Positions 20,026-28,339 of a stretch of 64,000 nucleotides of DNA are shown piece by piece (the stretch's first letter is position 1; every line of letters begins with the position of its first letter). The DNA is from Deferribacteraceae bacterium (lineage in GTDB: Bacteria; Chrysiogenota; Deferribacteres; Deferribacterales; Deferrivibrionaceae). A program made the translations under genes and the position numbers. Below the pieces are notes generated by a model. That model made no database searches, was not told the origin of the DNA, and saw only the letters and a list, made by a program, of their open reading frames with translations. The stretch spans positions 62,001 to 126,000 of the forward strand of contig JAIHAR010000002.1 of assembly GCA_020054865.1 (NCBI GenBank), read 5' to 3'.

Positions 20026-20031
20026 TTGTTC

Positions 20032-20484
20032 ATGCACATAATTTTCAGACAACATGATCAATTTTTCAGTGTGGAAGATAATTTTGTTGAAATGTTTATG
20101 TTATCAAAGCATTATTACACTATTTCTATCGTACCGGATTTTATAAACGGCTTTGAAAACATAAAGGGGGATATTTACCCTATAATCAGCATTTTCGGCA
20201 TTGTTAATAAAGAACCGCAGAAAGAGTCCCCACTTTACCTTCTAAAACTTAAAGAGCCATACAATATGTTACTATACAGCACTGTAAAGCCAAATCTTAT
20301 TGAAATTCTGGAAAACACACCAAAAGTTGAAATGCAGGCAAATCTGAAAGGGGTTTGCAACTTCGCATTCAGAATGGGCAATGATACTATTTACAATTTA
20401 AATCTTAATAAAATTGAAAATTCACTTATAGATTACCAAAAGTACAATATGAACGGAGATGCTTATGATAAAAAAAGTATTTAG
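20032..20484 (+). CDS. CheW-like adaptor protein (divergent)
   Basis: CheW proteins link receptors to CheA. The 150-residue product is a weak match, but the segment TISIVPDFINGFENIKGDIYPIISI has the order of hydrophobic and glycine residues found in CheW (P-x-F-x-x-G-x-x-x-x-x-G-x-x-x-P-x-I). It is the first gene of an operon encoding a receptor, CheA, CheB and CheR, and no other CheW is present, so an adaptor role is plausible. Its end overlaps the receptor gene by 20 bases. No ribosome site is seen; see the promoter at 19998-20025. Confidence 0.65.
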   Translation: MHIIFRQHDQFFSVEDNFVEMFMLSKHYYTISIVPDFINGFENIKGDIYPIISIFGIVNKEPQKESPLYLLKLKEPYNMLLYSTVKPNLIEILENTPKVEMQANLKGVCNFAFRMGNDTIYNLNLNKIENSLIDYQKYNMNGDAYDKKSI

Positions 20485-22633
20485 CCTAAAAACTATTGTC
20501 TACTCAAGGCTTATTTTCCTGTCAGTATTATTTTTTATATTTATGCTTTCAATATTGGCACTGACATCCAATCTTATAAACAAGCTTTATGATAAACATA
20601 CCTATTTAATCCAGGAAAACATCGTAGAATTGATTGAGTCAAAAATCGATGCTGAAGTTAGCAATATTGAAAACACCTTTACCAAAATCCATCTCATGGC
20701 TGATAAAAACAATGGAAATATTTATGAGGTTATAAAAAATTCCTCGGCCGGAAATAATACCAAATTTAATCTGTATGAATTTTCTGATCAAACGTATCTT
20801 TTGATATATGCAAGCTCGGAAAAACCGGCAAATACTATTAAATTTAATCCGGAAATAACAACGGCTGTTTATGCAGGTGGAAGCAAAATATACAAATCCC
20901 TTTCAAAAGACAATATCATTTTGAACGGATATTACGGATATGAATATAAAGACAAAAAATACGTTTTGCAAGTATATAAGACTGTGCCATTAAAACTTGC
21001 TCAGGTTGAAAATCTTGAGATTTTAAATGACGCTTCTTACAAATTTGTTGGATTTGATAATGAAGAAATCGGGGCATCCACCAAAAATATCAATGTAAAC
21101 CCAAATACACATTTTGTATCAGCCACAAAACAATTTATAAAAATATCTTTTGACACAAGCAAAGATACTGCAAACGCAAGCACACTAATAATCGTTGGTC
21201 TTTTAATACTTTTTATATTCTGGCTTATAACAGAAATTTTCTACTATAAATTTTCCAACAAGCCTATAATAGAAATCACCAACTCACTTACCAGCATATT
21301 GAATAATGAAAGACAGGTAAATTTTAGTGAGCAGCATATTGAAGAATATGACAGGGTTTCAAAAACAATTCAGGCTGTAATTGATAAATTGTCATCCCAG
21401 CAGCAACAAATGGAAGTACTTCTTAACAGATTGCCTATCCCTGTAACGGTAATAGACAATAAATTTAATTTTATTTACAGAAACAGTTTCTTCAACAATA
21501 TGCTTTCCCTGCCTGATGATATAGGTGACCAGAATTTTCTTGATATAATTCCAGAAACATTAAAAGTAATTGAAACAAATCTCACAACTTTTATGAATTC
21601 TCCAAAGCAAAAAGATAAATTTGAACTGTATGACCCGAAAAAAGATGAATACTATATCGTAAGATTTGGGAAAATTTCAGATGAAAAAGGGAAAACCGTT
21701 AATACCATTATCCTCTTCAATGATATTACTTTCCAGAAAAAAGAGTTTGAAAATCAGAAAAAGAGAAAAGAAGAGATTGAAAATATTCTTCTAAACATTG
21801 AAGAGTCTGTAATGAGGCTGTCTGCATCATCTTCAGAATTAAAAACTTCTGCAGAGTCCCTTAGCACAATGCTTGCACAGCAAAACACAAGCCTTGCTGA
21901 AACAAATGTTGCTATACAGGAACTTACGACCTCAGCAGACAACATTCTTACAAAAACAAAACACATACTTGATGTCTCAGGAAAGGTTGACAACGCCTCA
22001 CAGGTTGGATTCGGAGAGGTGGAAAAGTCTGTAGTGAAGTTAAACTCCGTAATTAAAATTACCGACGAATTGACAGATACAATCTTTCAACTTAATAAAA
22101 AAACACACAATATAAATAAAATATTGAAGACAATATATGAAATTTCCGAGCAAACAAATCTGCTTGCCTTAAATGCATCAATTGAATCAGTTAGAGGGGA
22201 AACCAACAGTATGGCATTTAAAATCATTGCTGAAGAGATAAGGGAGCTTTCAGACAAGACCTACAGTTTCAGCAAAGAAATAGAAAAAGAGGTCGAGGAA
22301 ATAACTGATTTCGGCTCAAAATCTGTTATGACAGTTGAAGAGGCAGAAAAATTAATTAAAAACATGCTGGAACATATGCAGGAAAACAAAGGAAATTTTG
22401 AGTTTATCAAGAATGAAGCAGACCATATAAACAAACATTTAATAGAAATAAATGAAGTAATAAAAGATTTGAACAATGCTTCAAATGACATTCTGACCAC
22501 GTCAAACGACCTGTCTCTTGCTATGAAAGATGCTCTTAAATCAGCAAAAGAATCTCAGGATGCAAGCCAGGATGTAGACAGCGTTATCAAAAATTTAAAC
22601 GAAACACTGGCTCATTTGGGTAAACTTAAGTAA
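20465..22633 (+). CDS. Methyl-accepting chemotaxis-type receptor with PAS domain
   Basis: The 722-residue receptor has a membrane helix at ~15-38, a periplasmic sensor region of ~190 residues with no family I can name, and a second helix at ~238-260. A cytoplasmic PAS domain (~315-425) leads to the signalling coiled coil (~430-722). The tip reads EQTNLLALNASIESVRG followed by AFKIIAEEIRELSDKT. This matches the MCP core but differs from the usual AAIEAARAGE, which suggests a dedicated, non-standard CheA/CheW partner. GGAG six bases before 20465 fixes the start over an ATG at 20459. The stop overlaps the CheA start by one base. Confidence 0.9.
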   Translation: MIKKVFSLKTIVYSRLIFLSVLFFIFMLSILALTSNLINKLYDKHTYLIQENIVELIESKIDAEVSNIENTFTKIHLMADKNNGNIYEVIKNSSAGNNTKFNLYEFSDQTYLLIYASSEKPANTIKFNPEITTAVYAGGSKIYKSLSKDNIILNGYYGYEYKDKKYVLQVYKTVPLKLAQVENLEILNDASYKFVGFDNEEIGASTKNINVNPNTHFVSATKQFIKISFDTSKDTANASTLIIVGLLILFIFWLITEIFYYKFSNKPIIEITNSLTSILNNERQVNFSEQHIEEYDRVSKTIQAVIDKLSSQQQQMEVLLNRLPIPVTVIDNKFNFIYRNSFFNNMLSLPDDIGDQNFLDIIPETLKVIETNLTTFMNSPKQKDKFELYDPKKDEYYIVRFGKISDEKGKTVNTIILFNDITFQKKEFENQKKRKEEIENILLNIEESVMRLSASSSELKTSAESLSTMLAQQNTSLAETNVAIQELTTSADNILTKTKHILDVSGKVDNASQVGFGEVEKSVVKLNSVIKITDELTDTIFQLNKKTHNINKILKTIYEISEQTNLLALNASIESVRGETNSMAFKIIAEEIRELSDKTYSFSKEIEKEVEEITDFGSKSVMTVEEAEKLIKNMLEHMQENKGNFEFIKNEADHINKHLIEINEVIKDLNNASNDILTTSNDLSLAMKDALKSAKESQDASQDVDSVIKNLNETLAHLGKLK

Positions 22634-24561
22634 TGATAGATGATAAGAAACTAAGAGACCTATTTGTTGACGAAGTTTTGTATCATATAAGGTCAGCCCG
22701 TGATTTTTTGAACAAGTCTTTTGAATCATCTCAAGTCAGCAATGAAGTCTTTAAAATTGTCAAAGTTTTTCACACCATCAAGGGCTCTGCAGGCATTATG
22801 GGGCTTGAGAGGTTTGGAGACATTCTTCACAAGTGTGAAAATTTCTTCCAGACTATATCAAATAAAGGGTTTACGCCTGACAGCAAAATAAAATCTATTC
22901 GCATAATAGATGAAATAGAAGCCCTTATTACAAACTTCCCTAAAAACTTTGATGAGTACCTCGACAAACTGGAAACATTAATAAATAGTAATGAGGTACC
23001 GGACATTGAGAAAGAGCCCATAACAAACACCGAAATCAAAGAAGAAACCTCCTCAATTAAAAATGTAAATGAGGATATTATTCGCCAGGTCAGGGATCTT
23101 ACAGAGGAGCTGACCCAAATCGTAGAATTTAGCTTTAAACCTAACAGCTCCAGGGAGAAAGAAAAGTATAAAGAAAAAATATCGGAACTTTTTCACTATA
23201 TTGAAAGCATAACACTATTAAACCTCGAAGAAATTGCTCCCAAAATAAAAAACATTGCCCATTATACCGCTACAAAACAGAATAAAAATATTAAAATTGA
23301 AATAAACTTCAACAAAATAGGCGTAGATAAAAATTTTTTCAGCATTGTCGAGGAAGCACTCATTCACCTTGTCCGAAATGCAGTATCTCACGGCATTGAA
23401 GTCCCCGATATCAGATTAAAAAAAGGTAAAGAGAAAGCAGGTATAATAAAAGTCAATGCGTCAAGCACGGGCAGTAAAATAAAGATTCTGGTAGAAGACG
23501 ACGGCGGTGGTATTGATTCAGGCAAAATTGCAAAAAAAGCAGTAGAAATGGGGATTATAAGTGAAAATGAAGCAAAGACTTTACCTGAAACGAGACTACT
23601 TGAATTTATCTTCACACCAAACTTTTCTACTGCTGAAAAAATTGACAATATCAGCGGAAGGGGAGTTGGGCTTGATATCGTAAAGGAAAGGATTGAAGCT
23701 ATCGGTGGAATTGTCAGAGTTAAATCTTCTGAAAAAGGCACTGTCTTTACTCTTGAAATCCCGGTATCGTTTAACATTCTACACTGCATTGTAATATCAA
23801 CCGAAAAAGAAAAAATAGGGATACCGGTATATTTAGTTGATAAGTTTATTAAAATAAATAAAGATAATTTTGATTCCGTAAGTGGCAGGCTAATATACAA
23901 TGACAAAGAATACAATATAGTTCATACCGGTAGTCTGGTCCAAAAAAATGTGGGCAATGAAAGCCTGGCAGTTATAATCAGAAACAAAAATACTATTATC
24001 ACTTGTGAAAACTATGAAGGCGAAAAACTCTTTACTGTAAAGGAGGTTCAAGGTATTTTAAAAACTATTCCCCATATAATCGGGTTTGCAATAGATGACG
24101 ATTTAAGACCCCTTGCGATAATAAATCCCCTTACAATAGGCTCAAAGAACAATTTTGTGCCAAATAACGTAAATGATAGCCCCTCAGTAAACTCCAAAAA
24201 CAGGCAATATAAGGCACTGGTAGCTGACGATAATGCACTTATAAGAGAAATGATTTCAGACTTTTTAAAAAGTATTGATATAAAAACCGTTATTGCAAAA
24301 AACGGCAAAGAGGCCCTTAAAATATATAAGTCTCAAAAATTTGATTTAATAATCACTGACATAGAAATGCCTGAAATGGATGGGATATCTCTTTTAAAAG
24401 AGATAAGAGAATCTGACAAAATTGTGCCTGTACTTATACTAAGCTCACGTGGTGAAGATAATGATATTACACTTGCTTTCAAAAGCGGTGCAAATGGGTA
24501 TTTTGTAAAAAAATTCTTTTCCAGAGAAAACTTTATTAAAAAGGTAAAAACGCTAATATGA
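22633..24561 (+). CDS. Hybrid chemotaxis kinase CheA-REC (FrzE-like)
   Basis: The 642-residue hybrid has an Hpt domain with phospho-accepting His47 (KVFHTIKGSAG) and a kinase domain with N box VEEALIHLVRNAVSHGIE and G boxes (EDDGGGI, GRGVGLDIV). A CheW-like domain (~380-500) and a C-terminal receiver (~525-640, DLIITDIEMPEMDG) follow. No P2 CheY-binding domain is seen, which fits a protein whose response regulator is built in. FrzE of Myxococcus has the same design. The start overlaps the receptor stop (TAATG) and the end overlaps cheB by four bases. Confidence 0.92.
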   Translation: MIDDKKLRDLFVDEVLYHIRSARDFLNKSFESSQVSNEVFKIVKVFHTIKGSAGIMGLERFGDILHKCENFFQTISNKGFTPDSKIKSIRIIDEIEALITNFPKNFDEYLDKLETLINSNEVPDIEKEPITNTEIKEETSSIKNVNEDIIRQVRDLTEELTQIVEFSFKPNSSREKEKYKEKISELFHYIESITLLNLEEIAPKIKNIAHYTATKQNKNIKIEINFNKIGVDKNFFSIVEEALIHLVRNAVSHGIEVPDIRLKKGKEKAGIIKVNASSTGSKIKILVEDDGGGIDSGKIAKKAVEMGIISENEAKTLPETRLLEFIFTPNFSTAEKIDNISGRGVGLDIVKERIEAIGGIVRVKSSEKGTVFTLEIPVSFNILHCIVISTEKEKIGIPVYLVDKFIKINKDNFDSVSGRLIYNDKEYNIVHTGSLVQKNVGNESLAVIIRNKNTIITCENYEGEKLFTVKEVQGILKTIPHIIGFAIDDDLRPLAIINPLTIGSKNNFVPNNVNDSPSVNSKNRQYKALVADDNALIREMISDFLKSIDIKTVIAKNGKEALKIYKSQKFDLIITDIEMPEMDGISLLKEIRESDKIVPVLILSSRGEDNDITLAFKSGANGYFVKKFFSRENFIKKVKTLI

Positions 24562-25568
24562 CTGACAAACTAAAACTATTCATTGTTGATGATTCTGCAT
24601 ACATTAGAAATTACCTCAAATCTAACCTTAAAGATACATTTGAAATTGTGGGTGAAGCAAAAGATGGTGTGGAAGCACTTAAGATTGTTTACTCTATAAA
24701 CCCTGACATAATCGTTCTTGATCTGATGATGCCAAAAATGACTGGCGATGCTGTTGCAAAAGCTATTATGTCTACAAAACCGATCCCAATTATACTGCTT
24801 ACATCTTTAACTGATGCTGAAATAAAAAAATCGTTTAATCTCTTAGAAAATACCGTTGTTGATATTATTAAAAAACCGATAGAACTTGATGAAAACTTTA
24901 TTGATAATCTCAAAAGAAAAATAAAAATCTGTGCCAATCTCAAAATAAACAAAGTTGGTGAAACACTCGCTCAGGCACTAACAACACCCAATATCGAACA
25001 TAAAAGTAAATATATACTGACTATTGGGGTTTCAACAGGTGGTCCAAAAACATTAAAAAATATTATCCCATTTCTTACATCTATAAAAAACCTCCCCTTG
25101 ATAGTTGTTCAACACATTGAGCCAGACTTTGAAGCCGGTTATTTAAACTGGATAAAGGATTTTTCCAATAAAGAAACTGTTTTGATAAACAAAAAACTAA
25201 GGCTTGATGACAGGCTGTTTATTTGTTCGCCGAAATTCAATGTTGAAATAGAGTCAAAGGGGGAAACTGCCTATCTTTTTCCTGTGGAAACGACGCCAAA
25301 CCAACTGTTTTTCCCAAGCATTGACAACATCGTATCAAATATTGCATATAAACTGAAAAATAGACTTATTCATATTCAACTTACAGGGCTTGGAAATGAT
25401 GGTCAGCATGCCTCAAATTTGGTTAAAAAGCTTGGGGGTATCGTAATTGCACAAAAACCTGAAGCCGCCATTGCAAGCTCAATGCCAAGAGCAGTAATGG
25501 ACATAGCAGACTATGTACTTGATCTTACACAAATAAATGAAAAAATAATGGAGATATTAAGGGTATAA
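24558..25568 (+). CDS. cheB: Protein-glutamate methylesterase CheB
   Basis: CheB removes methyl groups from receptor glutamates and so opposes CheR. The 336-residue protein has an N-terminal receiver (Asp55 in IIVLDLMMPKMTGD) and a C-terminal esterase domain. The esterase domain has the catalytic serine in GVSTGGPKTL, the histidine in VVQHIEPDF and the aspartate in TGLGNDG. All are intact. It overlaps CheA by ATGA and the next gene by one base, so expression is tightly coupled. Confidence 0.94.
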   Translation: MTDKLKLFIVDDSAYIRNYLKSNLKDTFEIVGEAKDGVEALKIVYSINPDIIVLDLMMPKMTGDAVAKAIMSTKPIPIILLTSLTDAEIKKSFNLLENTVVDIIKKPIELDENFIDNLKRKIKICANLKINKVGETLAQALTTPNIEHKSKYILTIGVSTGGPKTLKNIIPFLTSIKNLPLIVVQHIEPDFEAGYLNWIKDFSNKETVLINKKLRLDDRLFICSPKFNVEIESKGETAYLFPVETTPNQLFFPSIDNIVSNIAYKLKNRLIHIQLTGLGNDGQHASNLVKKLGGIVIAQKPEAAIASSMPRAVMDIADYVLDLTQINEKIMEILRV

Positions 25569-26959
25569 TGATTTTGGCGCTTGTAAAAAAGCCTTTACTT
25601 AAGGCTCAGTTAAAAAACTATTTCGATGAAATATCATTTTACGACTCACCTATTGAACTTGCCCAGGATATCCACAAACATCCCGAAATAGCGCTGATTA
25701 TTGAAAATACAGGTTTTGAAATCAGCGGATTTTTATTTTCTGCCATAATCGACAATTTAATACCCGATAGGGTATTTCACATCTATCTTGTTACAAACGA
25801 CACATCCAAATCGTTTCTTGTCAACAAGACTTTCCATAACATACATACCGTTTCATACAATAACATCAACGGACTTCTAAACGAAATAGTTTTTGACAAA
25901 TCAACAACTGTAAAAATAGACCACGAACTTTTTTATGATACTTTTGAGAAAATTTTTATTACCGAGAAAATAAAAACATTTATTATGGACTATTCAAGCC
26001 TTGTTTTAGAAAACATTTATGAACCAAATATATGGTTTATGGAATATTTTGAACTTATAAAGCTTATAACAGGGTTTGATAAAATAATTATCAAAATCAC
26101 CCATGATGACAAGCATATTATATTTTCAAGTATTAACAATTTTAGAGAATATCACATTCTTATGAACGAAATCTCAAGAGATTTAAATGACTCAATTTTA
26201 ATCACCCCTGACAACTTTTACCAGATTGAAAATGAAGATAGCTTTGTAAAATACAATATTGAATCATTCAATGAAAAAATAGGTGAAATTATCTTCTTAT
26301 TTTATAAATCAGCCTTCAGTGAGGATTTTCTGAAGTCTGTTTTGAAATTTCTCCTCAATCCTATTAAAATTTTCAAATGGTATAACTCATACCAATATCT
26401 TAAAAACAGGGTAGAATCCAAAAATAACATAACAAGAATCTTTTCAAATATCCTGAAAAATCTTGGGAAGAATATGCCTATGGCAAAACATATTGCGATT
26501 GTGGCTGAAAAATCTACATGGCTCAGTCTCAAAGCACAAAATGATATTTACTATATTATCACTACTTCTCCGGCTGAAATATGCTCAATCCTTTATATAC
26601 ACCTCAACAATCTACTGTCTGAAGGCGAAAAAGAATTTAAAGATATTATCTATTCCTTAAACAGCTTTATACATAAAAATATACTTCACCTTTACCCAAT
26701 GCCTCTTGGAATACTTAAAGTTGATGAAGATAAAATAACTTTTTCAGCTACTGAAGGAATAATAGGGCTATATAAATCAGCTACCTCAAAAAAAATTATT
26801 GAAACAGGCATGCAATATTTCGGAACATATGATATAATAAATCCGGTGATTAAAGAATTTTCTTACGATGATGAGACAAAAATTCAAATTTTACCTGACT
26901 TATTTTTTTGTACATTTAATGAGAGAAAAAAAATAATAAATGACTTTTTAAAAGGTTAA
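25568..26959 (+). CDS. Unrecognised 463-residue protein within the chemosensory operon
   Basis: No family is recognised with confidence. The frame fully overlaps the operon logic: it starts one base inside cheB and ends three bases before cheR. Residues 1-115 have the alternating strand-helix pattern of a receiver but lack the acidic cluster and phospho-aspartate. Residues ~165-280 look GAF-like. From ~310 to 463 the order of hydrophobic and small residues (YIIT...SLNSFIHKN...MPLGILKVDEDKITFSATEG...YFGTYDIINPVIKEFSYDD) resembles a SpoIIE/RsbU PP2C-type phosphatase. The metal-binding aspartates (DVSGHG, TDG) are absent. I infer a pseudo-receiver and pseudophosphatase, from pattern only. It has no membrane segment. 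Confidence 0.7.
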   Translation: MILALVKKPLLKAQLKNYFDEISFYDSPIELAQDIHKHPEIALIIENTGFEISGFLFSAIIDNLIPDRVFHIYLVTNDTSKSFLVNKTFHNIHTVSYNNINGLLNEIVFDKSTTVKIDHELFYDTFEKIFITEKIKTFIMDYSSLVLENIYEPNIWFMEYFELIKLITGFDKIIIKITHDDKHIIFSSINNFREYHILMNEISRDLNDSILITPDNFYQIENEDSFVKYNIESFNEKIGEIIFLFYKSAFSEDFLKSVLKFLLNPIKIFKWYNSYQYLKNRVESKNNITRIFSNILKNLGKNMPMAKHIAIVAEKSTWLSLKAQNDIYYIITTSPAEICSILYIHLNNLLSEGEKEFKDIIYSLNSFIHKNILHLYPMPLGILKVDEDKITFSATEGIIGLYKSATSKKIIETGMQYFGTYDIINPVIKEFSYDDETKIQILPDLFFCTFNERKKIINDFLKG

Positions 26960-26962
26960 TCT

Positions 26963-28339
26963 ATGAATGCAGAAAAGATAGACGAAATAAAACATCTCGT
27001 TAAGGTCTATTCGGGACTTCTGATTAAAGAAAGTCTCGAAATGAAATTTGATGAAACATACAAAACCTGGGTGGCCAGGACAGGGAATAATCCTTATAAG
27101 CTTGCCGACCTTTTAAAAAACAATACGGAAATGTTGCGGGAGTTTATTTCAGATTTGACTATAAATGAGTCTTATTTTTTCAGAAATGCCGAGCAATTTA
27201 AATGTATTGACCAAATTGTATCAACCCCTATCAATAAAAAACCTGAGATTAAAATTCTCTCAATAGGGTGTTCGAATGGGTGCGAACCTTATTCCATTGC
27301 AATTTATATACATAAATATCTCCCTGAAATATTTAAAAAAATATCAATAATCGGTATCGATATCAGTCAAAAGGTAATTGATATAGCCAAGAGTGGAGTT
27401 TATCAAAGCTGGTATTTGAGACATACCAGAAAAGAATTTCAAGAAGAATATTTTGAAATGACAGAAAACAATCAGTTTGCTGTTGTTGACAAAATAAAAA
27501 ACAAAGTGCAGTTTGAGACAGCAAACTTTCTGGACTATGAAGCGGCCGAAAAGTACCAAATAATCTTCTGCAGGAATTTTCTTATATACTTTGAACCGGA
27601 TACTGTTAATAAGATTTGCGATAAAATTGCCAATTTAATTGACAAAAATGGTATCGTCATATTTGGCAACTCAGATGCCCTTCTTGTCAACCAATCCGAT
27701 TTAATCAAAAAAGGCTGCTATTATACAATAGATGTAGCTACCGAAGAAAATATTAAAAATATTAACGATATATCAGTGCGTGTATCTTATGACATCAACT
27801 CAAAAGTCAACAGGCCCAAAAAAGATGAGTCGGAAGTGTTTAAAAAAGGGGTGCAGTTTATAAAATCGGAAGACTACGTTGAGGCTGCAAAGGAATTTGA
27901 GTTTATACTGACAAATATTAACCCCAAAAATATAAGGGCAGCTACATTCTTAGGTTATTCATATTACAAACTAAACAATCTAAGTCAGGCTAAGGCGGTA
28001 TTAAAAAAGGTATTGGACACCGAATCCTTATCCTATGAGGCATATTTATTGTATGCCATAATCCTTTACGAAGAAAAAAACTGTGCAGAGGCACTCGAAT
28101 ACTTAAGAAAGGCACTTTTCATTAACCCTCAAAGTGAAATAAGCTGGTTTTATCTGGGTAAAATATATGAATGTCAAAAAGAAACTTCTTCTGCAGTAAA
28201 TGCTTACAAAAAAGCCCTGTCCTTTCTTGAATTGCTGCCTGAAAATAAGAAGTACCCTTTGTCACCCGAGATTTCATCAGGTATGTTAAAAGAATGGATT
28301 ACCAACAAAATCAGTGAGATTGAAAAAGGCAGTCATTAA
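26963..28339 (+). CDS. cheR: Chemotaxis methyltransferase CheR with C-terminal TPR (FrzF-like)
   Basis: CheR methylates receptor glutamates using S-adenosylmethionine. The 458-residue protein has a CheR helical N-domain (with INESYFFRNAEQF), the SAM-binding motif LSIGCSNGCEPYSIAIYI and the catalytic-domain segment YQIIFCRNFLIYF. About 170 residues of TPR repeats follow (GVQFIKSEDYVEAAKEFEF and two or three more units, ~290-430). TPR-fused CheR is typical of Frz-type and other non-flagellar chemosensory systems. It is the last gene of the operon. The cysteines in GCSNGCEP differ from the usual ACSTGEEP. Confidence 0.93.
   Translation: MNAEKIDEIKHLVKVYSGLLIKESLEMKFDETYKTWVARTGNNPYKLADLLKNNTEMLREFISDLTINESYFFRNAEQFKCIDQIVSTPINKKPEIKILSIGCSNGCEPYSIAIYIHKYLPEIFKKISIIGIDISQKVIDIAKSGVYQSWYLRHTRKEFQEEYFEMTENNQFAVVDKIKNKVQFETANFLDYEAAEKYQIIFCRNFLIYFEPDTVNKICDKIANLIDKNGIVIFGNSDALLVNQSDLIKKGCYYTIDVATEENIKNINDISVRVSYDINSKVNRPKKDESEVFKKGVQFIKSEDYVEAAKEFEFILTNINPKNIRAATFLGYSYYKLNNLSQAKAVLKKVLDTESLSYEAYLLYAIILYEEKNCAEALEYLRKALFINPQSEISWFYLGKIYECQKETSSAVNAYKKALSFLELLPENKKYPLSPEISSGMLKEWITNKISEIEKGSH

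Follow-up and report, generated by a model that had tools for sequence, protein, structure and literature searches.

Introduction

Chemosensory gene clusters that encode CheR fused to TPR repeats (cheR-TPR clusters) belong to ACF (alternative cellular function) pathways, and they mostly carry multidomain response regulators with GGDEF, EAL, HPT, GAF or protein phosphatase outputs (PMC3447774). Receivers can also exist without the residues of phosphotransfer. FrzS and other aspartate-less receivers (PMC1974792, PMC4395418, PMC12632262) keep the receiver fold, FrzS within a chemosensory pathway, and the switching of such pseudo-receivers is an open question (PMC12632262). Loss of catalysis is also known on the output side: E. 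coli RssB is an adaptor composed of a receiver and a truncated, inactive PPM domain (PMC12143880), and it acts on sigma-S for ClpXP.

Here we describe protein X, which is encoded in a chemosensory operon of a Deferribacterales genome and in which a receiver-like and a phosphatase-like part both appear degenerate. The window, i.e. the whole stretch of 64,000 nucleotides that was analysed (G000:C41), is part of a 2.1 Mb draft genome.

Results

The gene for X is located in an operon of the order cheW-mcp-cheA(REC)-cheB-X-cheR(TPR), whose genes all lie on the + strand and overlap or nearly abut (Table 1). The ATG start codon of X has one base in common with the TAA stop codon of cheB (junction GGGTATAATGATT), and 3 bases separate the end of X from the start of cheR-TPR. 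The original prediction had placed X between cheB and cheR, overlapping or abutting both, and the coordinates bear this out, with Pfam identifying the neighbours as CheB and CheR-TPR. A Pfam scan named each member of the operon except X, the CheW gene weakly. CheA-REC contains an Hpt domain with the motif HTIKGSAG, a HATPase domain and a C-terminal receiver with DD and D. No candidate partner gene for X is present within the operon.

Table 1. Predicted domains of protein X and genes of the surrounding operon (window coordinates).
Feature	Position	Strand	Basis
Protein X, putative pseudo-receiver - GAF-like - pseudo-PP2C, 463 aa	25568..26959	+	
X residues 1-110, predicted receiver fold	25568..25897	+	AlphaFold, Foldseek, column composition
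X residues 119-284, predicted helical linker, GAF-like domain and 33-residue connecting helix 252-284	25922..26419	+	AlphaFold, Foldseek
X residues 288-463, putative SpoIIE/PP2C-type pseudophosphatase, C-terminally truncated, Asp444 retained	26429..26956	+	hhalign, Foldseek, metal sites
CheW-like coupling protein	20032..20484	+	Pfam CheW E=0.16 (weak); G016 orthologue; synteny
Chemoreceptor (MCP), two hydrophobic segments and PAS domain	20459..22633	+	Pfam MCPsignal E=1e-22, PAS_10 E=6e-5
CheA-REC hybrid kinase	22633..24561	+	Pfam Hpt, HATPase_c, Response_reg
CheB (receiver and methylesterase)	24558..25568	+	Pfam PF01339 E=1e-30, PF00072 E=2e-17
CheR methyltransferase fused to TPR repeats	26963..28339	+	Pfam CheR (PF01739) E=1e-45, TPRs

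Two observations concern other genes of the operon. The CheW-like protein is strongly divergent, its Pfam CheW match (E=0.16) comparing with 2e-8 for the same-slot orthologue in G016; alignment of the relatives sets its start at the ATG at 20032, and the listed ORF begins with TTG at 20026. The operon CheA is short (642 aa), and Pfam finds Hpt, ATPase and REC, not dimerisation or CheW-like regions.

X is a genuine gene and not a chance frame, because five further genomes carry an intact homologue at exactly this place in the operon. The six-gene order is the same in 6 Deferribacterales genomes of three family-level groups (f1, f3, f8), namely G000, G001 and G002, which belong to one genus, and G018, G009 and G016. 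By search, the homologues in the five genomes besides that of the window are 54, 54, 33, 28 and 26% identical to X; distinct X proteins number five with the window copy included, with which the remaining four share 24-54% identity in the alignment. Orthologues of the operon CheB (at least 40% identity, 100-40%) occur only in the 6 X genomes, all other CheBs of the 51 phylum genomes reaching at most 35%. The operon CheA scores 1368-345 bits in the same 6 genomes, the next best score among 385 genomes being 220. The operon-specific CheA and CheB thus coincide in exactly the 6 X genomes among the 51 searched in the phylum, so that in these genomes the operon always comes with X and X never comes without the operon. 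A contig scan for X across 84,980 species had its sole match in the Deferribacterales MAG UBA1873. Homologues had been proposed to be sought by synteny beside CheB and CheR-TPR, and this search found relatives that keep X in the same operon slot. X-like matches in G017, to what we take to be a DUF445-like protein, and in G032 and G033, where they contain internal stops, were dismissed as chance.

By its gene content the operon looks like an ACF-class chemosensory pathway: Pfam recognises CheA with a C-terminal REC, CheR-TPR, CheB, MCP and CheW in one cluster. It had been called Frz-like; it does not look like the Frz system itself, since the operon contains no gene for a FrzZ-like double receiver and its MCP has hydrophobic, membrane-spanning-like segments, unlike the cytoplasmic FrzCD receptor.

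The order CheW-MCP-CheA(REC)-CheB-slot-CheR-TPR recurs in G136, G276 and G137, which belong to two other families, with a second CheW in the clusters of G136 and G137. In these three genomes the slot is occupied by a REC-GAF-GGDEF protein, 487-497 aa long, whose receiver is intact (Pfam was applied to the G136 member). The presence of such proteins in the same slot, together with the outputs described for cheR-TPR clusters (PMC3447774), indicates that X, by position, occupies the place of an output regulator. Over REC and GAF, sequence kinship between X and the REC-GAF-GGDEF proteins is not detectable, so that the comparison gives no evidence of a shared origin of the slot. The main rival to a role of X as output or adaptor is that X regulates the array from within, as a structural adaptor or phosphorylation-independent brake on CheB, CheR or CheA-REC that tunes adaptation, the output being the CheA receiver or an unlinked regulator. 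The 1-base overlap with cheB and the 3-base gap to cheR make stoichiometric assembly with the adaptation enzymes plausible, and CheA's own receiver keeps its phosphorylation residues. However, with a regulator of enzymatic output in the same slot of three other genomes, and with multidomain output regulators being the rule in cheR-TPR clusters (PMC3447774), we consider such an array-internal role unlikely.

The X-bearing operon is not the only chemosensory locus of these genomes. A second conserved CheA-REC cluster (G000:C6, L119:4372-15604; L120; L121) encodes two REC proteins (one CheY-like, the other of ~415 aa), a CheW-sized gene product, an MCP and, after CheA, a REC-containing protein of 423-466 aa; it is probably a separate chemosensory class. 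In the main chemotaxis/flagellar cluster (G000:C42, L085:4069-17027) a PAS-PAS-SpoIIE phosphatase of 523 aa is encoded near CheA, CheB and CheR.

Searches of Pfam, NCBIfam and PDB sequences with X, as single sequences and as profiles, returned no credible match, in agreement with the original prediction that X matches no known chemotaxis component. None of the five X homologues has a Pfam hit, RssB is absent from the results of the PDB sequence search, and matches to CRABP2, TRF1, DegV and DUF1140 in the library searches were at chance level. When the X profile was run against whole genomes, two of the weak matches were in register, one covering X 376-444 in an active SpoIIE phosphatase and the other X 5-86 in a tandem CheY-like receiver; they fit the fold assignment and are non-significant on their own.

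The AlphaFold model of full-length X, calculated from an alignment of 5 rows (mean pLDDT 70.9), has a clear three-part layout in which five beta-alpha units (2-109) are followed by helices and a mixed domain (119-250), a helix (252-284) and a mixed C-terminal domain (288-462). The top Foldseek match of this model in the PDB is RssB (6od1, E=2.8e-4), with a low TM-score (0.19/0.25), the domain order being alike and the arrangement not superposable. The SpoIIE-type phosphatase 3pu9 and RsbX 3w40 (probability 1.00 each) as well as GAF proteins are also among the best matches. The predicted folds are hence not unrelated to receiver, GAF and PP2C. The receiver-GAF-PP2C arrangement that had been guessed from the sequence stands as a three-domain layout, in which the receiver and GAF parts come from predicted structure and have non-significant profile scores.

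Modelled separately, residues 1-116 adopt the same (beta-alpha)5 fold (pLDDT 75, pTM 0.67), and most of the top 50 Foldseek matches are receivers or pseudo-receivers (CpaE/TadZ, CikA, KaiA), with TM-scores mostly of 0.6-0.74 and a best E of 0.03. In hhalign the N-terminus aligns in register with 64 receivers (8-98 to 14-104) at a non-significant score of 14.2 that is equalled by 5 of 150 shuffles, and the PF00072 profile matches no X homologue in Pfam. The acidic pair of the predicted receiver is replaced by VK, AK or VN in the 5 homologues, the Lys at the end of beta5 is missing, and of the phosphotransfer residues the Thr (Thr76) alone is kept, in 4 of the 5 proteins. Glu46-Asn47 is invariant (5/5), and Glu46, with which beta3 ends, stands where a receiver has its phospho-Asp. 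A receiver-like N-terminus devoid of the phospho-Asp had been proposed; the Asp is indeed replaced, by an invariant Glu, in a (beta-alpha)5 fold known from structure prediction. As a Glu at this site imitates aspartyl phosphate in NtrC (cited in PMC4395418), Glu46 may by analogy be a fixed 'on' phospho-mimic.

The middle domain matches the GAF structures 4g3k, 4g3v and 3k2n in Foldseek (probability 0.99-1.00), and when hhalign compares it with the GAF-like part of a phosphatase from Deferribacterales, 25 of 150 shuffles equal the score. We infer the receiver and GAF folds of X from the models.

SpoIIE ancestry of the X C-terminus has support at the level of sequence profiles. Aligned by hhalign to 35 SpoIIE domains, nearly all of them from the phylum, residues 288-463 gave 66% probability (P=5.5e-5) and a score of 37.3, which none of 150 column shuffles reached (best 20.6); reversed X scored 18.4. 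This result bears on the possibility that the fold assignments are wrong, i.e. that X is specific to its lineage and resembles receivers and PP2C through a modelling artefact. The lack of a family library match, the alignment of n=5 and the modest pLDDT would be in line with an artefact, but the SpoIIE profile-profile score lies well beyond the shuffle range and residues 1-116 yield the same (beta-alpha)5 fold, with mostly receiver matches, when modelled apart, making an artefact highly improbable.

The GGD and ADVSG metal positions carry no Asp and are non-acidic in all 5 X homologues. Moreover, X stops ~19 residues past the TDG position, so that the C-terminal DD segment is absent and the last ~30 residues of the PP2C fold are gone. 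The PD motif of X aligns with the TD of TDG, both in hhalign and by predicted strands, indicating that Asp444 is a retained metal position; it is invariant in the homologues and the only one kept, three of the four PP2C metal sites being lost. The metal-site losses and the missing C-terminal DD argue that the domain is a truncated pseudophosphatase. The notion of a PP2C pattern lacking the metal-binding aspartates thus agrees with the SpoIIE profile match and the loss of the GGD and ADVSG Asp, and has to be amended for the invariant Asp444. Asn365, Phe367, Asn371, Pro377, Pro379, Ala394-Thr395 and Tyr417-Phe418-Gly419 are likewise invariant in the C-terminal part.

PP2C chemistry depends on a binuclear metal site. 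X might nevertheless be enzymatic or metal-dependent, either as a divergent phosphatase that uses Asp444 and other residues or through another GAF-controlled activity, and the invariance of Asp444 at the TDG metal position and of the further C-terminal residues would suit such an enzyme. With non-acidic GGD and ADVSG positions in 5 homologues and no C-terminal DD region, however, retained activity seems very unlikely.

A direct relationship of X to the HDOD-linked GAF-like/SpoIIE phosphatases found across Deferribacterales was also considered and rejected, as full-length hhalign was non-significant and the broad SpoIIE profile alone works. In the corresponding loci (L086:614-3252, L087:2732-5370, L088-L092) the gene after that of an HDOD protein encodes a GAF-like/SpoIIE phosphatase whose catalytic residues are intact, and in most of them a ubiE-like methyltransferase gene comes next. 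The N-terminal ~120 aa of the HDOD protein, which have no assignment, are possibly another pseudo-receiver.

Discussion

We lean towards a model in which X is an RssB-like, non-enzymatic output or adaptor of the ACF pathway, derived from a REC-GAF-PP2C regulator and operating without phosphotransfer or phosphatase chemistry. Both activities would have been lost from an ancestral response regulator of REC-GAF-PP2C layout. The way in which we infer that X docks, binds a partner and passes on the signal would be as follows. Without being phosphorylated, the receiver module with Glu46 would dock on a dimer partner or on a component of the array, either CheB or CheA-REC (through its REC or another domain). 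A change in the array, the binding of a GAF ligand, or both would move helix 252-284, the linker that corresponds to the one governing the PPM domain in RsbU and RssB (PMC12143880), and its shift would open or close the pseudo-PP2C surface. This surface would bind a downstream partner and sequester or deliver it, as RssB does with sigma-S. In a bolder version, which we put forward tentatively, the array would have a fully non-catalytic dedicated output, in which a receiver with a phospho-mimic Glu, a GAF sensor and a dead PP2C signal by protein contacts at the array instead of through phosphorylation of a response regulator.

X is likened to RssB by predicted architecture: both have an N-terminal receiver fold, a helical linker and an inactive PP2C/PPM domain that is cut off C-terminally. 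RssB, however, has retained its phospho-Asp and stands alone as a regulator, whereas in X the phospho-Asp site is Glu, the acidic pair is missing, a GAF-like domain is added and the gene lies in a chemosensory operon. With the WspR-type ACF outputs (REC-GGDEF/REC-GAF-GGDEF) X shares the slot between CheB and CheR-TPR seen in G136, G276 and G137, the REC-GAF-effector layout, for X as predicted, and a similar length (463 vs 487-497 aa); in those proteins the receiver is intact and the GGDEF domain looks active, in contrast to the degenerate receiver and PP2C of X. The REC-PP2C regulators of cheR-TPR clusters (PMC3447774) resemble X in having a PP2C-type effector after the receiver in an ACF cluster and are set apart, by their description, by the catalytic residues that X lacks in both domains. 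FrzS, finally, has a coiled-coil output rather than PP2C, and X carries an invariant Glu at the site.

To call X a new kind of output, as was done initially, is an overstatement, because RssB (PMC12143880) and REC-phosphatase outputs in cheR-TPR clusters (PMC3447774) are already known. FrzS and aspartate-less receivers, RssB and REC-phosphatase outputs are each a precedent; what is new in X is the doubly degenerate receiver/PP2C version fixed in a chemosensory output slot, and the combination of pseudo-receiver and pseudo-PP2C in such a slot was not found in a search of open-licence papers.

The sole candidate output of this operon lacks the residues of phosphotransfer and catalysis, yet it has been kept across three family-level groups. 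Being degenerate and still conserved, X allows a direct test of whether a chemosensory output can be independent of phosphorylation, and it carries the idea of a phosphatase turned adaptor, known from RsbU and RssB (PMC12143880), over to chemosensory arrays.
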